From contig JAGXLJ010000011.1 in NCBI GenBank assembly GCA_018334775.1, positions 1 to 11,255 of the forward strand: 11,255 nucleotides of DNA. Direction: 5' to 3'. Made by a program: the position numbers and the translations under genes. This document shows positions 2 through 11,255 of this stretch, one piece after another (position 1 is the stretch's first letter; the number at the start of each line of letters is the position of its first letter). Source of the DNA: Halodesulfurarchaeum sp. (lineage in GTDB: Archaea > Halobacteriota > Halobacteria > Halobacteriales > Halobacteriaceae). The notes beneath the pieces were generated by a model. It did no database searches and was not told the origin of the DNA. It worked only from the letters and a program-made list of their open reading frames with translations.

Positions 2-1075
2 AAGTACGATCTTGCCCAGCAAACCACCGGTGAGACCGATAGCGTGGTTGATGCGATGGAATCCCAGGAAGGTGAGTTTGCGACGATCGGTCACGACGTG
101 AAAACGCTCTCGGCCCAGGCAACGGTTCTCGAGGAACAACTCGCAGCCTACGAGTTTCGTAACCGCTCCGGGACGAGAACCCTCGATTCGAAAAGCCGGA
201 CCAGCGTGGCTCAGGCCGAGACCCAACCGGTCGTCATCGGGTCCAAGCCGTTCACGTCGAACAAGATTCTCGCGTATCTCGCCTACGAGATGTTTGAGGC
301 CCACACCGACCTCTCTCCAGTCGACAAAGTCGGCTCCGGCGTGACCGAGGAAACCTTCGGCAAACTTCGAAACGGTGAACTCGACATGTACTGGGAGTAC
401 ACGGGCACGATTCACGGGCAGTTTTTGAATCAGTCCGAGTCCATCACCGAGCCGGATCGACTGTACGAATCAGCAAAGCGAGGCATCGAATCACAGTACG
501 AGTTCACCTATGGTCGACGGGCCCAGCACAACAACACCTACTGTATTCTCGCACCCAGGGTCTGGACAGAAGAGACGGGAGTCCGATCCTTGGACGAGCT
601 GGCGACCTACGCAAACGAATCTGGCGCCGACCTCACAGCCGTCGTGGGTCCCGACTTCCGGGACCGTGATGACGGCTGGAGGGGTCTGATCGAATCCCAC
701 GACTTTAATTCGGAGTCCGCGGACGCCGTCTGGAATCGGACAGAAACCATCGGCTCATCCGAGGAGCGATACGAAATGATCGGTCGGTCGACCATCGATG
801 TCACGATGGGTCTCACAGTAGATGCGCTCATCGACATTCACGACCTGGAGGAGTTGACCGATAAGCAGCAGTTCTTCCCGATCTACAATCCGGGCCCGCT
901 CGTTCGAAACGACGTCCTCGAATCGAATCCGGATGTGATGGACGTTCTCGATCGGATCGGTCCGACATTCGGAGAGGTTTCGGAAATCCGGCGACTCGTC
1001 AGACAAGTCGACATCGGCAAGCGACACCCGCGAGTCGTGGCTCGGGAATATCTCGAATCAGTTGATCTCCTATAA
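2..1075 (+). CDS. C-terminal part of a probable taxis transducer fused to an OpuAC/OsmF-type quaternary-amine binding domain (5' partial)
   Basis: The frame is open from base 2 to the TAA at 1073-1075. A GTG at 44 could serve as a start but has no Shine-Dalgarno or TATA box, so I read the gene as cut by the window edge. Bases 230-1066 encode a complete osmoprotectant-binding domain of the OsmF/YehZ/OpuC type. Visible family signatures are IGSKPFTSNKIL, then DMYWEYTGT, a central HNNTY, FFPIYNPGPLVR, and the usual ending VAREYLESVDLL. This family binds betaine, choline or similar solutes, normally outside the cell for an ABC importer. No permease or ATPase gene is adjacent. The preceding part (2-157) is hydrophilic and heptad-like, with VKTLSAQATVLEEQLAAYEF resembling the last helix of methyl-accepting signalling domains. 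A 24-residue linker without a membrane segment joins the two. The binding domain is secure; the transducer identity of the N-terminal part is inference. Confidence 0.85.
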   Translation, partial: KYDLAQQTTGETDSVVDAMESQEGEFATIGHDVKTLSAQATVLEEQLAAYEFRNRSGTRTLDSKSRTSVAQAETQPVVIGSKPFTSNKILAYLAYEMFEAHTDLSPVDKVGSGVTEETFGKLRNGELDMYWEYTGTIHGQFLNQSESITEPDRLYESAKRGIESQYEFTYGRRAQHNNTYCILAPRVWTEETGVRSLDELATYANESGADLTAVVGPDFRDRDDGWRGLIESHDFNSESADAVWNRTETIGSSEERYEMIGRSTIDVTMGLTVDALIDIHDLEELTDKQQFFPIYNPGPLVRNDVLESNPDVMDVLDRIGPTFGEVSEIRRLVRQVDIGKRHPRVVAREYLESVDLL

Positions 1076-1093: not shown

Positions 1094-2824
1094 TCAGCCG
1101 AACACGTCGGACAGCTGGTCTCGCCATTCAGTGACATCCTGTAGGTCATTCTGAATGGAGTCGAGCTGTGACTCCAGATCCTGGAGTTCAAGCCGGACCG
1201 ACTCGACGTCTTCGACCCGTTCCTCGACGGCATCGAGATCGCCCTGAAGGCGTTCGATCTTTTCGGCCACGCCCGCTATCGCCTCGACCGTGTCTTCGAG
1301 AGATTCGAGGTGTTCGTTCATCGTCTCTCGGTCAGCGGCCGCCGCTCCGAGGCGTTCATCGATCCGGCCCAGTTCGGCATCGAAGCGCTCGACGTTCGAT
1401 TCCAGGTCTTTGAGCCGCTCCTGGCCCCCACCTGTTTCGTCGAGGAACGATTCGAGGGCGTCCGAATAGGCCTCCAAATCCGAAACTCGCGACTGGAGGT
1501 GTTTGATTCGGACCTGGTCACTCGGCCGATCCACAACGAGAGCCTCGCGGATCACCGACAGGGTCGCCTCGTCAATAGTTCCGGCTTCGATCTCTTCGGC
1601 GAATGCGGTAACAATGGATTCAGTCTCTGTCTCAGGTTCCATAGCAGTGTCAGTTGTCGACTCGATCGCAGTAGCTGGTTTTGTGGACGGTTCTTCGGCA
1701 GCTGTTTCGGATGCTGGTTCGGGTTCGTCGGCAGCAAGCGGTGGTTCGGTGTCCTCCGTTTCCGTCAGTGGTTCAGGCGCTCCAGTTTCTGTGGATGGTT
1801 CCACCTCCTCCGTTTCCATCAGTGATTCGGGATCCCCAGTTGCTGTCGATGGTTCCGCCTCCTCCGTTTCCATCAATGATTCGCGCTCCTCGGATTCGTC
1901 CAAGCCTTCGGTCCCTTCGGATTCAGCACTCATGTCTGACGTCTCCGCTTGGGTTTCCTCCGACTCCGCTTGGGATTCGGATCGGGCTGTCGTAAGCACG
2001 TCACCCGCTCCCTCCGAGGGGTCCCCGATCTCGGCCTTGGTCTCTTCCATTTCCACGTCTTCCACTGCCGATTCACTCTCTTTACTCGACTCTTCTTTCG
2101 TACCCGCGTCCGAGTCCAGAAGGTCGACCCCAGAGTCAGTCGAGGACTCCTCAGTTTCCCATGGCTCACTCGAGGCTTCGATTTCGTCTGCCAATTCCTC
2201 CGTACCAGCATCGAGAGGAGCATCTGACTCCGACTCTTGGGTCGGAACTGCTTCCGACTCGGAGTCGTTGATATCCGCGTCCAGTCCTTCGTCGACTGGT
2301 TCTTCCATCTCGGCCTCAGCCGTCGTCGGAATGTCTTCAGTTTCCACGGTCGCTGGCTCCGTGTCGTCCACTGTTTCTTCGAGCCCTGGAACGGTCTCCC
2401 GGTCCCCTCGGGCCAGCTCTCGGACGACCGACGAGGACTCTTCGGGAACAACCACCGAGTCCGCTTCCACAGAGTCCCTCGGGTTGACCTCGACAGTTGG
2501 TTTGTCCAGGAACACTGTCGGTTCGTCTTCCTCGCTCATCCGGACCCCGTAGACAGTTGTGAACTCCTCTCTGGCGTCAACAGTCCGGTCGAATCGGACC
2601 CCGCCCTCGCCGGTGGCGGTCCAGTGGTCGCTCCCGTAGTCGGGATGAAACCCGATCTGTTCGACACCAAACCCCTCCGGAATCGTATCGGTGATCCGAA
2701 GGTCGACCGGTTCGTCCCGAGTTGATGCAACCGCGAACGTAACGGCTGGGACGGGGAACTCGCTCACCGAGAACGACTTCGTTACCGTGACCCCGTCACG
2801 GACGACGACAGATTCCTCATTCAC
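1094..2824 (-). CDS. Unrecognised acidic protein: beta-rich N-terminal domain, repeat-bearing acidic linker, C-terminal coiled coil
   Basis: I do not recognise a named function. Numbering from the most upstream GTG (2836), residues 8-118 alternate hydrophobic strands with Gly/Pro turns and look like one beta-sandwich (FPVPAVTFAV, ITDTIPEGFGVEQIGFHP, TTVYGVRM). Residues 120-405 are a low-complexity linker of Glu, Asp, Ser, Thr and Pro that includes 18-residue tandem repeats. Residues 437-575 form a heptad-patterned coiled coil, interrupted by a GGG near 469-471. There is no signal peptide or membrane helix, so it is probably cytoplasmic. GTG codons at 2836, 2833 and 2824 are all possible starts. 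I chose 2824 because GAGGTGG (2839-2833) is a good Shine-Dalgarno about 9 bases before it. The gene is convergent with the binding-domain gene (18-base gap) and divergent from the next gene. Its position beside che genes suggests a taxis or scaffolding role, which is inference only. Confidence 0.8.
   Translation of the reverse strand: MNEESVVVRDGVTVTKSFSVSEFPVPAVTFAVASTRDEPVDLRITDTIPEGFGVEQIGFHPDYGSDHWTATGEGGVRFDRTVDAREEFTTVYGVRMSEEDEPTVFLDKPTVEVNPRDSVEADSVVVPEESSSVVRELARGDRETVPGLEETVDDTEPATVETEDIPTTAEAEMEEPVDEGLDADINDSESEAVPTQESESDAPLDAGTEELADEIEASSEPWETEESSTDSGVDLLDSDAGTKEESSKESESAVEDVEMEETKAEIGDPSEGAGDVLTTARSESQAESEETQAETSDMSAESEGTEGLDESEERESLMETEEAEPSTATGDPESLMETEEVEPSTETGAPEPLTETEDTEPPLAADEPEPASETAAEEPSTKPATAIESTTDTAMEPETETESIVTAFAEEIEAGTIDEATLSVIREALVVDRPSDQVRIKHLQSRVSDLEAYSDALESFLDETGGGQERLKDLESNVERFDAELGRIDERLGAAAADRETMNEHLESLEDTVEAIAGVAEKIERLQGDLDAVEERVEDVESVRLELQDLESQLDSIQNDLQDVTEWRDQLSDVFG
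1667..1882 (-). repeat. 54-base tandem repeat inside the acidic-linker coding region (four units, progressively diverged)
   Basis: Four consecutive 54-base units (1882-1829, 1828-1775, 1774-1721, 1720-1667, read on the minus strand) encode 18-residue periods. The first two are nearly identical in protein: ESLMETEEAEPSTATGDP and ESLMETEEVEPSTETGAP. The third (EPLTETEDTEPPLAADEP) and fourth (EPASETAAEEPSTKPATA) are increasingly degenerate. The unit length is a multiple of three, so copy-number change would keep the frame and only alter linker length. Confidence 0.85.
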
Positions 2825-2829
2825 GAGTA

Positions 2830-2839
2830 CCACCACCTC
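2830..2839 (-). promoter_or_regulatory. Shine-Dalgarno that decides the start of the coiled-coil gene
   Basis: On the minus strand GAGGTGGTGG matches the archaeal anti-Shine-Dalgarno (GGAGGTGA-like) and itself contains the two most upstream GTG codons. The third GTG, at 2824, lies at normal spacing behind it, which favours starting there. The TATA box upstream implies an mRNA leader long enough to carry this site. Confidence 0.55.
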
Positions 2840-3002: not shown

Positions 3003-3641
3003 ATGGATTCGCCCCGGGATCGGGAGGAGTTGTCGGATGGCTCCGTCCTCAACCCCGAAGACCTCGACATCACCGAGGAAGAGAAGGTTGAGGAATTAGA
3101 CGAAACTCGCTTCGTCATCGGCGCCGAGGGCCGCCCGCAGGTCGAGGACACAGACGATTCACTGGAGAATTTCGAAGCCGAACATGACGTGTCCGGGCCG
3201 ACGGCCGCTGACTCGAGTGCCATTCAGTCCGCAGAACCGTCTCAAGAATCCGAGCCCACCGACCAAATCGAACTCCGGGGGAGCGATGTCAAACGGTGGA
3301 TTTCGGCAAATTTGCGGCGAACCGATAGTCAATACGCCTACCGACTGGCGGCCAAAACTGGCGATGACATCAGTCACCAGCAGTTGGCCTCCGACGACAT
3401 CGGGATGGCCTTCGATGGGCTCCTGATGTGGTACGCTCAGCAGGTTGGAGACGGGACAGCCGTCGAAGACACGCTCGGCATCCTGCTCGCGGAGTCAAAC
3501 ATCCGAGTCAGGTTTCCCGTCGTAGGGATGATCGCGTACCTGGAAAAACACGACCTCTCGCCGGAAGATTCGATCGCTGATTTGCTTTCGGTCATCAGAG
3601 ATCACGACGGACTCGTATTCCCGCGAGGCACGAAACGCTAA
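3003..3641 (+). CDS. Haloarchaeal protein of unknown function, possibly of the DUF7500 type, next to cheW
   Basis: 212 residues. I do not know its function; the N-terminal motif LNPEDLDITEEEKVEELDETRFVIG reminds me, from memory and unverified, of haloarchaeal proteins annotated DUF7500. Residues 1-40 carry this motif. Residues 41-90 are an acidic, Ser-rich, probably disordered linker. Residues 91-212 form a compact, mostly helical domain with several hydrophobic helices (AFDGLLMWYAQQVG, TLGILLAESNIRV, SIADLLSVIRDHDG). No signal peptide, membrane segment or catalytic motif is visible. The ATG is supported by a TATA box 30 bases upstream. It lies 65 bases before cheW on the same strand, but cheW has its own TATA box, so the two are probably separate or only partly linked transcripts. 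A taxis-related accessory role is suggested by position only. Confidence 0.85.
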   Translation: MDSPRDREELSDGSVLNPEDLDITEEEKVEELDETRFVIGAEGRPQVEDTDDSLENFEAEHDVSGPTAADSSAIQSAEPSQESEPTDQIELRGSDVKRWISANLRRTDSQYAYRLAAKTGDDISHQQLASDDIGMAFDGLLMWYAQQVGDGTAVEDTLGILLAESNIRVRFPVVGMIAYLEKHDLSPEDSIADLLSVIRDHDGLVFPRGTKR

Positions 3642-3675: not shown

Positions 3676-3706
3676 CCGGGTGCAACCGCCGATTCAGACA
3701 AGACCG

Positions 3707-4279
3707 ATGAACGCACCCGACACAGATTCGACAATCCCGGCCGAGACGGGAGAAGAAGGGACACAGGCAGACATCGCGGCCGAAGTCGTCGAATTCACGC
3801 TCGGCGAAGAGCGGTGCGCAATGGATATCGACTCCGTCGACAGCATCGTCGAGACAAAACAGATCACCAGAGTCCCACGGGCCCCAGACGCAGTCGAGGG
3901 GGTCATGGACCTCCGCGGCGAAACGACCGCGGTCGTGAATCCGACGGAGTTCCTCGCCGTGGGTTCGGGAGGGGCCGCAGACAGTATTCTCGTTCTGGAT
4001 CGCGACGACGACAAACAGAAGATCGGCATCAGGGTCGACGACGTGCAGGAGGTTGCCTCCTATCCAACCCCGCAAGTCGACCAGAACGGTGACCTCACGG
4101 GCATCGAAACGAGTGCTATCGAAGCCAAACTCGTCAAAGGCGTCCTGCGAAAGTACATCGGCGAGGTCGACGACGATGGCATTCCCGAAGACGTTGATCT
4201 CGTCCTCTGGCTCGACATCAGCCAGCTGATCGATGCGGTCACTGTCGCGAAAGAAGCGGCGGCGAACAATCAGGTCTGA
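3707..4279 (+). CDS. cheW: Chemotaxis coupling protein CheW
   Basis: CheW is the cytoplasmic scaffold that couples the receptor signalling tip to CheA in the chemosensory array. From the ATG at 3707 the protein has 190 residues: an acidic extension of about 20, then one CheW SH3-like domain. Family signatures are the opening strand VVEFTLGEERCAMDIDSV, the segment VPRAPDAVEGVMDLRGE (about residues 56-72) with the conserved Arg-Gly that contacts CheA and receptors, and DLVLWLDISQLI near the end, which matches the last strand of the fold. It is longer than a minimal CheW because of the N-terminal extension and a stretched central part around residues 120-165. An upstream in-frame GTG at 3680 would add nine residues but lies too close behind the TATA box. 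The gene is followed after 50 bases by cheY, which has its own promoter. Confidence 0.95.
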   Translation: MNAPDTDSTIPAETGEEGTQADIAAEVVEFTLGEERCAMDIDSVDSIVETKQITRVPRAPDAVEGVMDLRGETTAVVNPTEFLAVGSGGAADSILVLDRDDDKQKIGIRVDDVQEVASYPTPQVDQNGDLTGIETSAIEAKLVKGVLRKYIGEVDDDGIPEDVDLVLWLDISQLIDAVTVAKEAAANNQV

Positions 4280-4329: not shown

Positions 4330-4689
4330 ATGGCACAGGACGTGCTTCTCGTCGACGATTCGGAGTTCATGCGAAATCTACTCCGCGAGATACTCGCAGA
4401 CGAATTTGAAATCGTTGACGAAGCTGAAAACGGCGTCGAGGCCGTCGAGATGTACAAGGACTACCTGCCTGATCTGGTTATGATGGACATCGTGATGCCG
4501 ATTCGAGACGGAATCGAGGCGACTGCCGAGATCAAAAACGGCGATTCCGGGGCCCACGTCATCATGTGCACGTCCATCGGGCAGGAGGAAAAGATGAAAA
4601 AGGCGGTCAAAGCCGGCGCTGACGGCTACATCACCAAACCGTTCCAGAAACCCAGTGTGATGGACGCCATTGAGGACGTACTCGCATAA
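4330..4689 (+). CDS. cheY: Chemotaxis response regulator CheY
   Basis: A single-domain receiver of 119 residues, the normal CheY length. It takes a phosphoryl group from CheA and carries the signal to the motor; in archaea this requires the adaptor CheF. The active-site set is complete: acidic pair D9/D10, phospho-acceptor D53 in VMMDIVMP, T81 in MCTSIG, Y100 and K103 in GYITKPF. Transcription is probably leaderless from the TATA box at 4296. The TAA stop is followed directly by the cheB ATG with no spacer, so translation is likely coupled. Confidence 0.97.
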   Translation: MAQDVLLVDDSEFMRNLLREILADEFEIVDEAENGVEAVEMYKDYLPDLVMMDIVMPIRDGIEATAEIKNGDSGAHVIMCTSIGQEEKMKKAVKAGADGYITKPFQKPSVMDAIEDVLA

Positions 4690-5727
4690 ATGACGCGCAT
4701 TTTGGTGGTCGACGACTCGCATTTCATGCGTACCGTCATCACCGACATTCTCGAAGATGCCGGGATCAACGTCGTCGCGCAGGCTTCAAACGGACGTGAA
4801 GCCGTGACCCAGGTCGTCGAGCACGACCCGGACGTCGTTACGATGGACGTCGAGATGCCCGAAATGAACGGAATCGAAGCCGTCGAGAAAATTATGAATC
4901 GGCACCCGGTCCCCATCATGATGCTGTCGGCGTTGACGACCGAGGGCGCGGACTCGACGCTCGACGCACTTGACAACGGGGCCGTCGATTTCTTCGCCAA
5001 ACCCAGTGGGACTATCTCCACGGACCTCTCGGCCCACGGCGAGGCGCTGGTCGAGACGGTAAAGTCGGTCGCCGGGTCCGATCCGTCCGCCCAGCAGATC
5101 TCTAGTATCGAGTCAAGCCGGGATACACACGACGAGGAGTACGCCGAGACGCCGACGCTGGTGATCGGAGCATCAACTGGTGGACCGAACGTGGTCGAAT
5201 CGATCCTGGAGGGACTCCCACGGGCACCTGATTTCAGAATACTGGTTGTCCAGCATATGCCCGATCAGTTCACCGGCCGGTTCGCGAAGCGGCTAGACGC
5301 CAATTCCGCGTATTCCGTTCGAGAAGCTGAAGATGGGGCTCGAATCGGCGGGGGGGAAGCATTAATCGCGAAAGGCGATTACCACATGATCGTCAGCAAC
5401 TACAGGAGCGGCCGCCTCCGAGTGAAACTTGAGCAGAGCGAGCCTGTCCACTCGGTCAGGCCGGCAATTGACGTCACGATGAAATCCGTCGCCGAAACAA
5501 TCACTGATCCAGTGACGGGAGTGGTCCTGACCGGGATGGGCTCGGACGGCTCTGCAGGAGTCAAAGCGATCGACCGGATAGGCAGCCAGATTCTAGCCCA
5601 GAACGAGGCGACGAGCGCGGTCTTCGGAATTCCTGGCCGCGCGATCGAAACGGGCTGTGTCGACGAGGTGCTCCCTGTCGAGGACCTCGTGGACGGGATA
5701 CTCCGGACAGTACGGGTGAATACCTGA
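4690..5727 (+). CDS. cheB: Receptor methylesterase/glutamine deamidase CheB
   Basis: CheB removes methyl groups from receptor glutamates when phosphorylated by CheA, giving adaptation together with CheR. The 345 residues have the standard order. A receiver domain spans about 1-120, with D8/D9, phospho-acceptor D53 and K104 in FFAKPSG. An acidic linker covers about 130-153, and the C-terminal esterase domain about 155-345. The catalytic triad is visible: S162 in GASTGGP, H189 in VVQHMP and D286 in TGMGSDG. The length and all key residues match the family, so it should be active. It starts immediately after the cheY stop, and its TGA overlaps the cheA ATG by one base. Confidence 0.97.
   Translation: MTRILVVDDSHFMRTVITDILEDAGINVVAQASNGREAVTQVVEHDPDVVTMDVEMPEMNGIEAVEKIMNRHPVPIMMLSALTTEGADSTLDALDNGAVDFFAKPSGTISTDLSAHGEALVETVKSVAGSDPSAQQISSIESSRDTHDEEYAETPTLVIGASTGGPNVVESILEGLPRAPDFRILVVQHMPDQFTGRFAKRLDANSAYSVREAEDGARIGGGEALIAKGDYHMIVSNYRSGRLRVKLEQSEPVHSVRPAIDVTMKSVAETITDPVTGVVLTGMGSDGSAGVKAIDRIGSQILAQNEATSAVFGIPGRAIETGCVDEVLPVEDLVDGILRTVRVNT
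5715..5719 (+). promoter_or_regulatory. Ribosome binding site of cheA
   Basis: GGTGA matches the archaeal anti-Shine-Dalgarno and lies seven bases before the cheA ATG at 5727, inside the end of cheB. It supports that start and independent re-initiation at the one-base overlap. Most other junctions in the operon lack such a site. Confidence 0.55.
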
Positions 5728-7718
5728 TGGACGATTATCTCGAAGAATTCGTCCGCGAGGGCGAAGAACATGTTACCGAGCTGAACAATGCGTTGCTCAC
5801 GCTTGAGAGCAAACCCGAGGACGAAGCGGCAATGGACCAGATCTTTCGCACGGCCCACACCCTGAAGGGGAACTTCGGGGCAATGGGCTTTGAAGATGCA
5901 TCAGACTTGGCCCACGCCGTCGAGGATCTCCTCGATGCAATGCGGGACCGGGAGATCGAAGTTACCTCTGACCGGATGGATCACATCTTTGCGGGCATCG
6001 ATGCGATCGAAGCCTGTCTCGATGAAATCGAAACCGACGGGGAGGTCTCCCAAACCGTCAGGCCGGTCATCACCAACCTTCGGGAGGTCCTCGAATCTGG
6101 CAACGAATCATCAAACGAATCCACTAACACCGAGGGAGAAGGGGTCTCAGCGGCCAATTTTGACCGGGACGCCTTCGATATCGGCGACCAGCGAGTGGTC
6201 CAGGCAACGGTCGATATCGCCGAGACGGAGATGCCGGGTGTCGACGCGATGTTCGTGCTCGAAGATATCGAAGAGGCCTTCGAAATCGTTACGTCTGAAC
6301 CCGATCGGGACGCAATCGAAGATGGCGAATACGAGGACCGGTTCGACATGGCCTTGGCGACTGACGCAAGCGACGTCGGCTCCGAGATCGCTCAACACAG
6401 CAATGTGGCCGAGGTGACCGTCAGCGAACTTCGTGGAGACGACGACCAGGCAGCCACTTCAAGTGACGAATCAGCACCGTCAGACGCATCAGAAAATGGG
6501 CCGGCGGCCTCAGAGACGGATACGGCATCCGCTGATACGGACGACGACACCTCTGACTCGCCTGACAATGGAGGCAGTAGCGTCGGCGATATCCAATCAG
6601 TTCGGGTCGACGTCGACCAACTCGACGAGCTTCACGGCCTAGTCGAGCAACTCGTCACCACCCGAATCAAACTCCGCCGGAGCGTCGACGAGAACGACCG
6701 CCGGACTGAGGAGGAGCTCGACGACCTCGATAAGATCACGTCGAACCTCCAGGACACCGTGATGGACATGCGGCTGGTCCCGATGAAGAAGATCGTCGGG
6801 AAGTTCCCACGCCTGGTCCGTGATCTCGCCCGCGAAGAAGACAAACAGGTCGATTTCACCATCGAGGGAGACGACGTCGAACTCGATCGGACCATCCTCA
6901 CCGAGATCAGCGATCCGCTGATGCACATCTTGCGAAACGCGGTCGATCACGGAATCGAGCCACCCGGCGAGCGGGAGGCCGCCGAGAAAGACCCGACGGG
7001 GTCGATCACGCTTCGCGCTGAGCGTGAGCGTGATCGGGTGAAAATCCAGGTCATCGACGATGGCCGCGGCGTCGATCACGATGCAGTCAGGCAAAAGGCC
7101 GTCGAAAAGGAGATTCTCGAGAAATCGGAAGCCGCGGAAAAACCGGATGCAGAAATCGCCGAACTGATCTTCCATTCCGGCTTTTCAACCACCGACGAGG
7201 TCACCGACGTGAGCGGGCGGGGCGTTGGCATGGACGTCGTCAACGATACGGTGTCACGACTCGACGGGAGTGTGTCCGTCAAAAGTACGGAAGGCGAGGG
7301 AACGACGGTGACGTTGACGTTGCCGGTCACCGTGGCCATCGTAAAGGTGCTTTTCGTTAGATCCGGCGGCGAGGAGTACGGCATCCCGATCAAAACCGTC
7401 GACGAAATCAGTCGCATGCGCTCGCTCAAGCGTGTCGACGGCGAGGAAGTCGTGACCTACGACGACACGGTGTATCCACTCGTTCGACTGGGCGATGCAC
7501 TCAAAGTTCCGGCCGAGACCACAAACGGTGATGGAATGCTCGTCAAGATCCGGGACACCGAACGACAGGTCGCGATCCACTGTGACGAGGTTCGTGGGCA
7601 AGAAGAAGTCGTCGTCAAACCCTTCGAGGGGATCCTCAGCGGTATACCTGGTCTCTCCGGAGCGGCCGTGCTTGGTGAAGGTGACGTCGTGACGATTCTC
7701 GACGTGGCGACCTTGTAA
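5727..7718 (+). CDS. cheA: Chemotaxis histidine kinase CheA
   Basis: The cytoplasmic kinase of the chemosensory array, phosphorylating CheY and CheB in response to receptors. The 663 residues show the classical domains. P1 (HPt), about 1-120, has the phosphorylated H44 in RTAHTLKGN. A P2-like response-regulator-docking domain spans about 145-236. A Ser/Asp/Thr-rich linker covers about 238-288, and the P3 dimerisation helices about 290-350. The P4 ATP-binding domain, about 350-533, has an N box around N404 (ILRNAVDHGIE), a G1 box D444-D-G-R-G, an F box (FHSGFSTTDEVT) and a G2 box SGRGVGMDVV near 496-505. The P5 CheW-like domain, about 534-663, ends in VVTILDVATL. All catalytic boxes are intact. 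The start is supported by GGTGA seven bases upstream. The gene is in the middle of the operon, followed after two bases by cheC. Confidence 0.97.
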   Translation: MDDYLEEFVREGEEHVTELNNALLTLESKPEDEAAMDQIFRTAHTLKGNFGAMGFEDASDLAHAVEDLLDAMRDREIEVTSDRMDHIFAGIDAIEACLDEIETDGEVSQTVRPVITNLREVLESGNESSNESTNTEGEGVSAANFDRDAFDIGDQRVVQATVDIAETEMPGVDAMFVLEDIEEAFEIVTSEPDRDAIEDGEYEDRFDMALATDASDVGSEIAQHSNVAEVTVSELRGDDDQAATSSDESAPSDASENGPAASETDTASADTDDDTSDSPDNGGSSVGDIQSVRVDVDQLDELHGLVEQLVTTRIKLRRSVDENDRRTEEELDDLDKITSNLQDTVMDMRLVPMKKIVGKFPRLVRDLAREEDKQVDFTIEGDDVELDRTILTEISDPLMHILRNAVDHGIEPPGEREAAEKDPTGSITLRAERERDRVKIQVIDDGRGVDHDAVRQKAVEKEILEKSEAAEKPDAEIAELIFHSGFSTTDEVTDVSGRGVGMDVVNDTVSRLDGSVSVKSTEGEGTTVTLTLPVTVAIVKVLFVRSGGEEYGIPIKTVDEISRMRSLKRVDGEEVVTYDDTVYPLVRLGDALKVPAETTNGDGMLVKIRDTERQVAIHCDEVRGQEEVVVKPFEGILSGIPGLSGAAVLGEGDVVTILDVATL

Positions 7719-7720
7719 CT

Positions 7721-8320
7721 ATGTCAACGATGATCGACATTCGACGACTCAGAGATGTTAACCGCCTCGCGAAGGCGGGCGCAGAGACGGTCGCAGAGCA
7801 CCTCACTCAACTCACCGGGGTCGAAACAGAGATGGAGATCACGAAGATCAACGTCTTGGACATCGAGGATTTAGGTGCTCATCTCGGCAAAGAACGGGTC
7901 GTCGGTGTCAACGTCCCGCTTTTGGAACATCCCCATGGCACGGTCCTGATCCTCTTCGACGACGGGAGTGCAAAGACACTTGCTCACACAATGGTCGGCG
8001 GCACGGGGGATGACGAACCGGGCTACTCGGAAATGGAACGATCCGCGATCAAGGAGGTTGGTAACATCATGACAAGCGGGTTTATCGACGGTTGGGCGAA
8101 CGTCCTTGGGCGGACAATCGACATTTCGACGCCCCAACTCCTTCGGGCCGAAGGGGACACCATCGTGGAGCATAGCGTGGAATCGGGGGGCCACGAAATC
8201 GCCCTCCTCTTCGATTCGACGCTCAAGGCACCAGACGTGAACGTGGAAGCGACGATTTACACGTTCCCGAACATCGAGGAATTCGTAGAACTCATCAATT
8301 CGATCGAACATGCGGGTTGA
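7721..8320 (+). CDS. cheC: CheY-P phosphatase CheC (single module)
   Basis: CheC-family proteins hydrolyse CheY-P and can bind CheD. In this 199-residue protein the phosphatase signature S-x3-E-x2-N-x22-P is exact: S108, E112, N115 and P138 in SAIKEVGNIM and DISTPQ. Bacterial CheC normally carries two such sites. The equivalent N-terminal region here (LRDVNRLAKAGAETVAEHL) lacks the Glu and Asn, so only one site looks functional. Haloarchaeal genomes call such genes cheC or cheJ. It starts two bases after cheA, and its last 11 bases overlap the start of the next gene, so expression is probably coupled. Confidence 0.93.
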   Translation: MSTMIDIRRLRDVNRLAKAGAETVAEHLTQLTGVETEMEITKINVLDIEDLGAHLGKERVVGVNVPLLEHPHGTVLILFDDGSAKTLAHTMVGGTGDDEPGYSEMERSAIKEVGNIMTSGFIDGWANVLGRTIDISTPQLLRAEGDTIVEHSVESGGHEIALLFDSTLKAPDVNVEATIYTFPNIEEFVELINSIEHAG

Positions 8321-9479
8321 TCTGGCCTCCCTCGAAACGTTCAACCGAATCGGGACCGCCGGCGCTACCCAGGCCGCCGACGCGCTGTCGATGCTGACCG
8401 ACAGTGACACGTTCGTCAAATCGACGAAAATCAACTTCACGCCAATCGATTCGATCGACTCGCTCTTCAGGGACGTCGAAACTGCCGTGGCCATCGACTT
8501 TGATGGCGGACTGGAAGGCAACGCGTTGCTCGTGTTCGACGAATCCAGTGCGGACCACGTCCTCGACGAGCTCTCAGAGCCCGGCCAAGAGCCGAATTCG
8601 GCTTACCTCAACGAAGTGGCGAACATCATGACGAGTAGTTTCGTCGATGGGTGGGCCGAGCAACTTTCTGAAACGATCGACATTTCGACGCCGACGACAG
8701 TCGAGAACCCAGCTCACCAAATCCCCTCGGACGAACTTGCGGACTTCTCATTCGTTTTTGAAAGTGAAATTGCGGTCGATGAAGGGGACAACGTGTGTCG
8801 ATTCTACCTCCTCCCCGAGCCGGAAAGTTTCCTGGCGATGCTTCAGAAATCCGGTGACGAGTCAACGGACACGGGAGTTTCGATCCGTGAACTCTCGACG
8901 TTCATCAGTCTCACAGCTGCGGGGGCCGAAACCGTCGCGACCAACCTCGAAATGATGACCGGCATCGAAACGGACGTCGCCGTGACTCATCTGGACTTCG
9001 TCCCCATCAAAAACGTCGCTCGGGCGATCGACGAATCCGAGTACGCAGGGACAATCTTCGAATTCGGTGGCGCCATTGATGGTTATCTCGCAGTGATGTT
9101 CAAATCCGATAGTGTAGCCACCGTCACGGATGCATTGCTCCCGGCCGGGGCCACTGGCGATGCCATGCAACAAAGTGCGATCGAGGAGATCGGAAACATC
9201 ACAGCCAGTGGCTTCATCGATGGCTGGGCAAACGCGCTCGATACCACCATCGATCATTCTGTCCCGGACTTCGTCGACGACATGGGCCATGCCGTTCTCG
9301 AGTCCGTGGCCGTGCAACTGGCCCGGAGCCAGGAGTTTGCCTACGTCTTTGACGTCACGATCACCGCGGGGGACCCATTGAACTGCCGGCTCTTTGCCTT
9401 CCCCGAAGCGGACGGCTTCCGAAAGGTTGTCTCGGGATTGGACGAGGATCTGGATGTCTCGACCGTGGAGCGTGTATGA
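8310..9479 (+). CDS. cheC: Tandem CheC-domain protein (two CheC modules in one chain)
   Basis: 389 residues forming two CheC-like halves, about 1-180 and 190-380. Each half begins with a degenerate N-terminal helix (LETFNRIGTAGATQAADAL; ELSTFISLTAAGAETVATNL) and contains one phosphatase helix. Module 1 has E102, N105 and P128 at family spacing, but Ala at position 98 where Ser or Asp is usual. Module 2 has the full set S289, E293, N296 and P319. Both contain the (F/V)(I/V)DGWA stretch also seen in the preceding single-module CheC, so all three modules probably arose by duplication. From family knowledge it may dephosphorylate CheY-P and/or bind CheD, encoded next; division of labour between the modules is inference. 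The ATG at 8310 overlaps the previous gene by 11 bases. Confidence 0.9.
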   Translation: MRVDLASLETFNRIGTAGATQAADALSMLTDSDTFVKSTKINFTPIDSIDSLFRDVETAVAIDFDGGLEGNALLVFDESSADHVLDELSEPGQEPNSAYLNEVANIMTSSFVDGWAEQLSETIDISTPTTVENPAHQIPSDELADFSFVFESEIAVDEGDNVCRFYLLPEPESFLAMLQKSGDESTDTGVSIRELSTFISLTAAGAETVATNLEMMTGIETDVAVTHLDFVPIKNVARAIDESEYAGTIFEFGGAIDGYLAVMFKSDSVATVTDALLPAGATGDAMQQSAIEEIGNITASGFIDGWANALDTTIDHSVPDFVDDMGHAVLESVAVQLARSQEFAYVFDVTITAGDPLNCRLFAFPEADGFRKVVSGLDEDLDVSTVERV

Positions 9480-9483
9480 GTCG

Positions 9484-9963
9484 ATGGGCCGAGCCGGTGA
9501 GCAACGAATTCGGGTCGGCGTCGCGGACATGGCGGTTACAGACACCGGAACCCCGTTGGTCACGAGCGGACTCGGATCCTGTGTTGCGATCGGTGTCCAC
9601 GACGGTGACGGCGTCGCTGGCCTCCTGCACGCGATGTTGCCGGCGGCCCCGGAAGACGGTCTCTCGAAAGCGAAATACGTGGACAGTGGGATACAAACGA
9701 TGAAAGCCGAGCTGACAGCACTCGGTGCCGATCCGAACAAGCTGACCGCGAAGATTGCTGGGGGGAGTTCAATGCTCAACCTCGACAGCGGCGAGCCGGT
9801 CGGTGATAAGAACGTGGCTGAGACCAACCAAGTGCTGGATCGCCAGGGTATCGAACTCGCTGGGGATGACACCGGCGGGAATTCCGGGCGCTCGGTGACC
9901 TTTCAGCCGAGGACCGGAACCATGCACATCCAACGTGTCGATGCGGCCCCGACAGAACTATGA
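9484..9963 (+). CDS. cheD: Receptor glutamine deamidase CheD
   Basis: CheD deamidates specific receptor glutamines and is controlled by binding CheC. From the ATG at 9484 it has 159 residues, a usual length. The Cys-protease-like catalytic residues are visible: T27, C33 in LVTSGLGSC and H49 in GLLHAMLP, followed by the conserved [10 protein letters not shown]. Family homology starts at about residue 9 ([10 protein letters not shown]). I chose the ATG four bases after the preceding stop. A GTG at 9472, overlapping the tandem cheC gene by eight bases, would add four residues and is the main alternative; GGAG at 9467-9470 does not settle it. Longer upstream extensions lack homology and would overlap the previous gene deeply. 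The stop overlaps the cheR start by four bases (ATGA). Confidence 0.94.
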
Positions 9964-10760
9964 GTGACTTTGACGACCTCCTGACCTACATCGAATCGGA
10001 GACCAGTTTCGCCTCGAGTTACTACGAAGAGTCCTATCTCGACCGTCGGATCTCGGCACGGATGCGCCGAACCGACGTACAGAATTACGGCGAGTACCGC
10101 GCCCTACTCAGAGACAGCACCAGCGAACGAGCCGAACTGCTAGATACGCTTTCGGTCAATGTCACGAGTTTCTTCAGGGATGAGAAAGTCTGGACGGCTC
10201 TCAAGGACGTGCTTCGGGAACTCGACGCCGGGTCACGGTCCCTGGACATCTGGAGTGCCGCCTGTGCCGATGGCCGGGAGCCGTACTCCCTGGCCATGTT
10301 GGCTCTCGATAGTGGCCTTTCGTCCAGATCTGTCGACATCCTCGGCACAGATATCGATGAAAACGCGCTTGATCGGGCCCGGCAGGGCGTCTATAGGAGT
10401 AGCCGAACGACGGACCTCGACGAGCAACTGTCGTTTCTCGACTCCCCGGACCAGTTCGTGAAAAGCGATGGGGATCAAATATCTATCGGGCAGTCCGCGT
10501 CGGACCTGGTGTCCTTCAAACGCCACGATTTGATCACCGGCGATGCAAAAGACGGCTTCGACCTGGTCCTGTGCCGAAACGTCTGCATCTATCTCGACAC
10601 CGAATATAAACGGCCGATCCTCGAGACGGTCAGTCGATCCCTCCGAACGGGGGGCTACCTCGTACTCGGGCAAACTGAGACACTGCCTCCGGACATCAAA
10701 GATCGGTTCGAAGCAGTCGATCCCCGCCTGCGGATCTATCGCTTGACTGAATCCGAGTAA
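9960..10760 (+). CDS. cheR: Chemoreceptor methyltransferase CheR
   Basis: CheR methylates receptor glutamates using S-adenosylmethionine, opposing CheB. The 266 residues contain the N-terminal helical domain (about 1-75) ending in [10 protein letters not shown], and the Rossmann-type methyltransferase domain with the SAM-binding motif [13 protein letters not shown] (about 98-110). An acidic residue follows in [10 protein letters not shown] (D131/D133), and CRNVCIY lies near 205-211. The chain ends in the typical [11 protein letters not shown] and LRIYRL strands. There is no C-terminal pentapeptide-binding extension or TPR. It overlaps cheD by four bases and is the last gene of the packed operon; a 40-base gap follows. 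Confidence 0.96.
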
Positions 10761-10800: not shown

Positions 10801-11255
10801 ATGGCAGATTCCGTCGTCGCGGACTTCGTCACGGATGTGATCCCTGATACCGGGAGTTACGCTGAACCCGTTCGCAGTCGAGTGTTGATGAACCGGCAGC
10901 AGGTGGTCCTCGTGACTCCTGACGATCGGATTTCGGTCCCCATCGGGGACGTTTTCGACATCGCGTATGGGAGCGCCCCAAAGGAGTTGCGAGCCTTTTT
11001 CGAGGACACGGTGAGTGTCGCGTACGAGGACGGCCAATCAAAACGCGTTGCGCTCATCGAAGGCGCTGATGATACGGTCGAACGCTTTACCGATCTCCTC
11101 TTCAAAGGAATTCTCAACAAAACGACAGTGGCTATCAAACATCCCGCGAAGGTCGGGGGTCGGATCACAGACGAAACATTCGAGAAGGGGGCCCTCTATC
11201 TGAGTCCGGCCGCAGTTAAGTTCAAGACCGAGGACCCGTTTTCGATCGAAGTCTC
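10801..11255 (+). CDS. cheF: Taxis protein CheF (3' partial)
   Basis: The frame from the ATG at 10801 has no stop before the window ends, giving 151 complete codons. The translation (start MADSVVADFVTDV, then VLMNRQQVVLVTP, SVPIGDVFDIAYGSAP, LFKGILNKTTVAIKHPAKVGGR) matches what I know of the archaeon-specific CheF (DUF439) family, about twice this length when complete. In Halobacterium salinarum CheF proteins bind CheY, CheD and a CheC, and connect the bacterial-type signalling system to the archaellum. Its position directly after cheR fits. The gap of 40 bases and a weak TATA-like box suggest it may have a separate leaderless transcript. Confidence 0.9.
   Translation, partial: MADSVVADFVTDVIPDTGSYAEPVRSRVLMNRQQVVLVTPDDRISVPIGDVFDIAYGSAPKELRAFFEDTVSVAYEDGQSKRVALIEGADDTVERFTDLLFKGILNKTTVAIKHPAKVGGRITDETFEKGALYLSPAAVKFKTEDPFSIEV

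Follow-up and report, generated by a model that had tools for sequence, protein, structure and literature searches.

A conserved haloarchaeal gene family encoding a probable soluble chemoreceptor with a C-terminal OpuAC domain predicted to be cytosolic

The window, by which is meant the whole 11,255-nucleotide stretch that was analyzed, is the entire contig C304 of assembly G000, a 72%-complete draft genome of Halodesulfurarchaeum sp. The frame at positions 2-1075 (plus strand, 357 amino acids) is open at the left contig edge, which cuts the gene, and encodes the end of an MCP signaling hairpin followed by a complete OpuAC domain. The features of the window are as follows:
2..148, plus strand, end of the C-terminal arm of the MCP signaling hairpin (alignment to P0001-P0024; helix H53-376 in the P0011 model)
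149..229, plus strand, hydrophilic linker, mostly disordered and without a membrane segment (pLDDT, hydropathy)
230..1072, plus strand, two-lobed OpuAC substrate-binding domain, PF04069 (Pfam, structure model)
1073-1075, plus strand, stop codon of the fusion gene
1094-2836, minus strand, very acidic repeat-rich coiled-coil protein of 580 amino acids that adjoins the fusion (sole Pfam match NPV_P10, a coiled-coil likeness)
3003-3641, plus strand, DUF7500 protein directly before the che operon (1.7e-57)
3680..4279, plus strand, CheW (PF01584)
4330..4689, plus strand, CheY-type response regulator (PF00072)
4690..5727, plus strand, CheB (PF01339 and PF00072)
5727..7718, plus strand, CheA (Hpt, P2, H-kinase_dim, HATPase_c and CheW domains)
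7721..8320, plus strand, CheC (PF04509)
8310..9479, plus strand, double CheC-like protein (PF04509, two stretches)
9394..9963, plus strand, CheD as an open frame (PF03975), the likelier start by eye being an in-frame ATG at ∼9484
9960..10760, plus strand, CheR (PF01739)
10801..11253, plus strand, CheF, cut by the right edge (PF04283)

The che genes of the window lie in the order CheW-Y-B-A-C-C-D-R-CheF. The initial annotation had remarked that no ABC transporter genes adjoin the fusion on the visible side, and a scan of the 11 other frames of the window found none, showing the che operon instead. In the same-genus genome G002, an MBL-fold gene lies between the acidic coiled-coil gene and the fusion.

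Pfam shows OpuAC only in the window frame itself (PF04069, 4e-40, residues 76-352), and MCPsignal gave no match there because the contig begins inside the C-terminal helix of the hairpin. The earlier reading of the left-edge frame as the tail of a methyl-accepting domain had relied on ∼50 residues of coiled coil. By alignment, the first residue encoded in the window matches residue 328 of P0011, a 684-amino acid protein of Halodesulfurarchaeum sp. that is identical to the window at 356/357 residues. The N-terminal part of the gene was traced to the edge of a second contig, C116, of this assembly (L071:2-613), where the frame begins with ATG and matches P0011 residues 1-202 at 99%; residues ∼203-327, a stretch that includes the conserved MCP tip, are present in neither C116 nor C304. 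Upstream of the fusion start on C116, likeness to scanned G001 genes points to archaellum genes of the ArlI and ArlJ types, a MinD-like gene and a cheW gene. The cheW gene adjoining the fusion (L071:686-1274, minus strand) appears by eye as two frames in the draft and as one frame in G001, which may reflect a sequencing error or decay.

The whole gene is present in the same-genus genomes G001 and G002, where it encodes 679 amino acids in each case. In both proteins MCPsignal (6.9e-41 and 3.7e-42; PF00015 scores of 140.4 and 144.5 bits against a cut-off of 34.6) precedes OpuAC (9.9e-46 and 2.7e-45), with a HAMP-like start whose HAMP match lies below the Pfam cut-off, a best MCPsignal stretch at residues 158-322 and OpuAC at residues 398-674. 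Over the query, P0001 from H. formicicum and the G001 protein do not differ. The presence of MCPsignal in the full-length G001 and G002 orthologues, in which PF00015 and PF04069 are both over cut-off, bears out the methyl-accepting tail, and the proposed order of MCP domain, hydrophilic linker and OpuAC recurs in full-length relatives. None of the refuting conditions set by the initial annotation was observed: neither a lipobox nor a stop was seen just upstream of base 2, and the gene has an MCP domain there, not a permease.

Full-length relatives span 648-787 amino acids and consist of a HAMP-like region, an MCP hairpin, a disordered linker and OpuAC. The hairpin tip, together with a methylation-type motif at tip -71, was found in 22/22 full-length rows. 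A model of the OpuAC domain (pLDDT 93.9) shows a complete two-lobed type II solute-binding protein (SBP) fold. The AlphaFold model of P0011, a monomer in which the hairpin was drawn as one helix, has pLDDT values under 50 for linker residues 378-399, so that OpuAC would be flexibly tethered. The OpuAC domain is under purifying selection, with dN/dS values of ∼0.1 (0.096 and 0.105), and is less constrained than the MCP half (0.054).

A length-limited database search with the OpuAC part gave 41 matches, of which 24 were MCP-OpuAC proteins, 16 were OpuAC-permease proteins and 1 was of another kind. A survey of haloarchaea for the same domain order, as had been proposed, showed the fusion in at least 5 of 391 genomes of the class (G000, G001, G002, G336 and G387), and a search with P0011 agreed; an OpuAC match of any kind was present in 102/391. 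The figure of five is a lower bound that leaves out weak matches (E 6.5e-4 to 9.7e-4; frames of 563-1582 amino acids; G198, G007 and G028) as well as strong matches whose frames, at most 405 amino acids long, a contig edge possibly cuts. Long OpuAC frames in G256 (929 amino acids), G385 (547, twice, of which the C3 copy was read), G257 (495) and G315 (450) were rejected as fusions, being by eye lipoprotein-type SBPs in overrunning open frames, and P0037 was likewise set aside as by eye exported and unfused to signaling. In G387, a truncated second copy (L057:7155-7823, minus strand) with a hydrophobic N terminus followed by the C-terminal half of OpuAC lies beside the intact fusion.

The OpuAC halves of 20 fused proteins formed one clade (100/100) among 42 haloarchaeal domains, those with loci retrieved, and 7 bacterial domains (27-31% identity), with 6 near-identical or partial fused rows omitted. 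The MCP halves of 20 fused rows also formed one clade, with an SH-aLRT of 99 in a quick tree of 83 rows that used 62/74 of the MCPs P0042-P0115 and omitted 5 fused rows. That each half forms a single clade implies one fusion event, followed by descent or transfer. The fusion is a real, conserved gene family.

Export and membrane signals were judged by hydropathy and motif scan. The maximal KD19 hydropathy reached 1.6 in 1 of 24 fused rows, namely P0022, which has a hydrophobic N-terminal stretch at 1.75; as P0003 and P0021 are fragments, this is 1 of 22 full-length fusions. The remaining 21/22 are without a membrane-like segment, the linker included, as had been noted for the window, and the OpuAC domain is accordingly predicted to be cytosolic. 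By contrast, 90/100 of the other haloarchaeal MCP matches (P0042-P0141, three of them UgpB-type) reach a KD19 of 1.6. A lipobox-like motif was found in 0/24 fused rows in the 90 residues before OpuAC and an RR motif in 1; stand-alone haloarchaeal OpuACs (n = 42) showed a lipobox-like motif in 31 cases and an RR motif in 40. The hallmarks of an ABC importer binding protein (export signal, lipobox or permease fusion) were therefore not seen in the fusion, in which an MCP takes the place of the permease. Fused OpuACs contain a mean of 1.04 cysteines, as compared with 0.095 in the 42 stand-alone domains, 1.7 in the 7 bacterial domains and 1-2 in exported OpuACs paired with a transducer; given that exported paired and bacterial domains also have cysteines, the excess was dropped as a cytosolic sign.

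The roles of quaternary-ammonium pocket residues were taken from the accessible text of PMC9732360. In the fused rows, which are closely related and do not provide independent counts, K82, Y133, N178, R222 and Y295 (window-frame numbering) are kept in 26/26 and Y180, T136 and F84 in 25/26. The cage position of Tyr419 is Leu in 25/26 fused rows and in 0/39 stand-alone haloarchaeal rows, and the Y337/F107 position is variable (H in 13, Y in 11, F in 1 and M in 1), suggesting that ligand specificity may have moved.

The position of E375 is Asp in 26/26 fused rows, so that the pocket Glu is lost in all. Asp was rejected as a fusion-specific residue, being found also in 5/39 stand-alone rows. For haloarchaeal OpuACs (L012-L053 and L072-L074), loci reaching ∼1.5 kb to each side were searched with our own transducer profile at E 1e-8. 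Glu was kept in 27/27 without a transducer-like frame alongside and, beside such a frame, lost in 13/18 and kept in 5/18, losses that amount to few events on the tree, so that the counts are not independent. The five that keep Glu (L015-L018 and L022) adjoin frames with weak matches (1.4e-13 to 3.5e-15) that may not be MCPs. The 18 transducer-linked domains include three OpuAC-MCP pairs in which the residue is S, A and S, and three CosB-like rows have G. These sequences point to a possible mark, based on few independent events, whereby transport OpuACs would keep the pocket Glu and sensing OpuACs would lose it. A lower affinity, suited to sensing, would be in keeping with the absence of the Glu and of one aromatic residue of the cage.

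Three genomes, G351, G383 and G387, have an OpuAC gene immediately ahead of an MCP gene. These pairs of an OpuAC lipoprotein and a membrane MCP are located as follows:
L072:1708-5087, in G383
L073:1133-4546, in G387
L074:1457-4904, in G351

By eye, the paired OpuAC proteins have RR and lipobox-like starts, and the paired MCPs have membrane segments (KD19 2.7-3.2). The three paired transducers, P0042 and 20 fused MCPs formed one group with an SH-aLRT of 100 in a quick tree of 73 rows that used 49/59 of the MCPs P0042-P0100. In the OpuAC tree, the fused clade joined a group of pairs and CosB-like rows at an SH-aLRT of 64, which is compatible with the same source but weak. As the closest kin of the fused MCP half are membrane transducers encoded beside exported OpuAC lipoproteins, a CosB/CosT-like pair is the probable source of the fusion. 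The CosB-like rows L019-L021 were rejected as that source on account of their separate OpuAC clade, a rejection that holds for L019-L021 only.

Within the genus, the fusion sits between archaellum genes and che genes, and is the one MCP so placed among five distinct MCP frames in G001 and four in G002. Outside the genus, no chemotaxis gene was found among the neighbors scanned (6 frames in G336 and 2 frames in G387), and a BPD_transp_1 permease lies ∼7 kb from the fusion in G336. The near-complete genomes G001 and G002 each have 3 BCCT carriers and no OpuAC match besides the fusion. As described in the accessible part of PMC4230888, glycine betaine uptake in haloarchaea relies on a sodium symporter or, in rare cases, on an ABC transporter, and CosB and CosT homologues are both present in 10 species of that study.

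Among known systems, 6/18 Htrs are without a membrane segment according to the accessible text of PMC3579733. The same text describes Car (Htr11) of Halobacterium salinarum, which, like the fusion, is an MCP without membrane segments and reads an internal solute (arginine); it mentions no solute-binding-protein domain in Car, whereas the fusion has OpuAC. Car, Htr9, 12, 13 and 15 and HemAT are membrane-segment-free MCPs as are 21/22 full-length fusions, for which an internal signal is predicted. CosB/CosT of H. salinarum and similar pairs resemble the fusion in uniting an OpuAC-type binding protein with an MCP and in having lost the pocket Glu. As the initial annotation anticipated, they differ from it in that they comprise two genes, for an exported lipoprotein and a membrane transducer (L066, L072-L074), whereas the fusion is one polypeptide without a membrane segment; the CosB/CosT-like labels were assigned by anatomy, and in the tree the CosT-like row does not adjoin the fused MCPs. 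The domains of cluster F-III (EgtU, ProX, OsmF, OpuBC and OpuCC) have the fold and most pocket residues in common with the fusion but serve ABC importers outside the membrane, while the OpuAC of the fusion is on a transducer with no export signal seen. Cytoplasmic transducers and binding-protein taxis are each known. No description of their C-terminal union was found in the open-licence papers searched; the accessible part of PMC9602780 names no C-terminal fusion, and betaine together with chemotaxis was not found in that of PMC6176080.

The nearest MCP matches include three with a C-terminal SBP_bac_8 domain, among them P0088 of Haloferax mediterranei, which scored 242.6 bits against UgpB, under the model cut-off of 411. 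A search with the SBP domain of P0088 returned 270 proteins, and by our reading MCPsignal was present in 118 of the best 120 of the 270. Of 121 UgpB-type rows, 96 have the tip pattern; a hydrophobic N-terminal segment is present in 17/96, and 79/96 are without a membrane-like segment. A short motif at the SBP start was placed behind the tip in 66/96 and did not place the other 30. Like the OpuAC fusion, these proteins have an MCP hairpin and then an SBP domain, although of the SBP_bac_8/UgpB family and not OpuAC. The UgpB-type fusion was found in at least 66/391 genomes of the class and 14/86 genera (e.g. G108:C6:287636-290167), a lower bound from a census at E 1e-150 in which the top two candidates per genome were scored; the same census did not find it in Halodesulfurarchaeum. 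Records of this type are annotated as extracellular solute-binding protein or Htr38. The UgpB-type fusion is possibly an internal glycerol-3-phosphate sensor. Two separate events behind the OpuAC and UgpB fusions are likelier than a single one, since their MCP halves are not sister (quick trees, long branches).

The reading that we favor, and hold to be probable on the basis of sequence, is that the gene encodes a soluble MCP transducer of ∼680 residues whose cytosolic C-terminal OpuAC domain, of the ProX/OsmF group, reads an internal betaine-like solute, likeliest glycine betaine or a related trimethylammonium compound. The strain name of P0016, AArc-GB, might hint at glycine betaine but was given no weight in this reading. 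The earlier proposal, under which the cell would sense how much compatible solute it contains, is the best inference, and the pocket is altered at two to three positions. A cytosolic chemoreceptor for another internal ligand (a thiol betaine such as ergothioneine, a sulfonium compound or some metabolite), with the fold kept and the specificity changed, is unlikely but deserves some weight: by E-value, the closest relatives of solved structure are EgtU domains, which bind ergothioneine, the EgtU Y337 position is Tyr in the 11/26 fused rows noted above, and the aromatic residue of Y419 has given way to Leu. Yet the EgtU G244 position is F in 25/26 fused rows and the F293 position is Y in 26/26, both as in AfProX, and the carboxylate-binding and most ammonium-binding residues are kept. 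The pocket substitutions could also suit an OpuAC domain that senses nothing and persists as a scaffold or degenerate passenger; five invariant pocket residues, the dN/dS of ∼0.1 and the full two-lobed fold make this improbable.

Still more improbable is a protein that is anchored or exported with its OpuAC outside the cell, in the manner of a fused CosB-CosT. The hydrophobic N terminus of P0022, its counterparts in 17/96 UgpB-type fusions and the action of the nearest unfused relatives across the membrane, as judged by anatomy, would agree with such an arrangement, but 21/22 full-length fusions offer no membrane-like segment, and none separates OpuAC from the hairpin, whose contact with CheA requires a cytosolic position. 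That the fusion is an artefact of assembly or annotation might be supposed from the position of the window at the edge of an incomplete draft; this is already refuted by the occurrence of the fusion in 24 database proteins and in the near-complete G001 and G002, and the likelihood of an artefact is practically nil.

Under the favored reading of an internal solute receptor, the protein would be cytosolic and its solute taken up, the BCCT carriers being the uptake route found. Binding of the solute would close the two lobes of OpuAC. The hairpin would place the linker and OpuAC next to the HAMP-like part, at the end remote from CheA, and since the two arms of the hairpin terminate together, closure may be felt at the HAMP-like end; the signal may be passed on as OpuAC packs against that end or against the dimer mate. 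Closure would then shift CheA activity via CheW, with CheY and CheF relaying the signal to the archaellum and CheR, CheB and CheD adapting the receptor. In evolutionary terms, a CosB/CosT-like pair would have been joined, and loss of the export signal and membrane part would have turned an outside sensor into an inside sensor.

Solute-binding proteins are, in the textbook view, extracellular components. A wider proposal, to which we give slightly less than an even chance, is that haloarchaea have internalized such proteins at least twice as C-terminal sensors (OpuAC from a CosB/CosT-like pair and, widely, UgpB) and swim by internal solute, with loss of the Glu marking taxis OpuACs detuned from transport to sensing. 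The pocket Glu would be a possible sequence mark separating sensing from transport OpuACs, and the split and fused forms would constitute a natural experiment in the passage from outside to inside sensor. With an SBP that is by prediction inside the cell and C-terminal to the hairpin, the family offers a soluble full-length receptor for studies of C-terminal sensors, and allows a test of whether archaea steer by the amount of an osmolyte or metabolite inside the cell.
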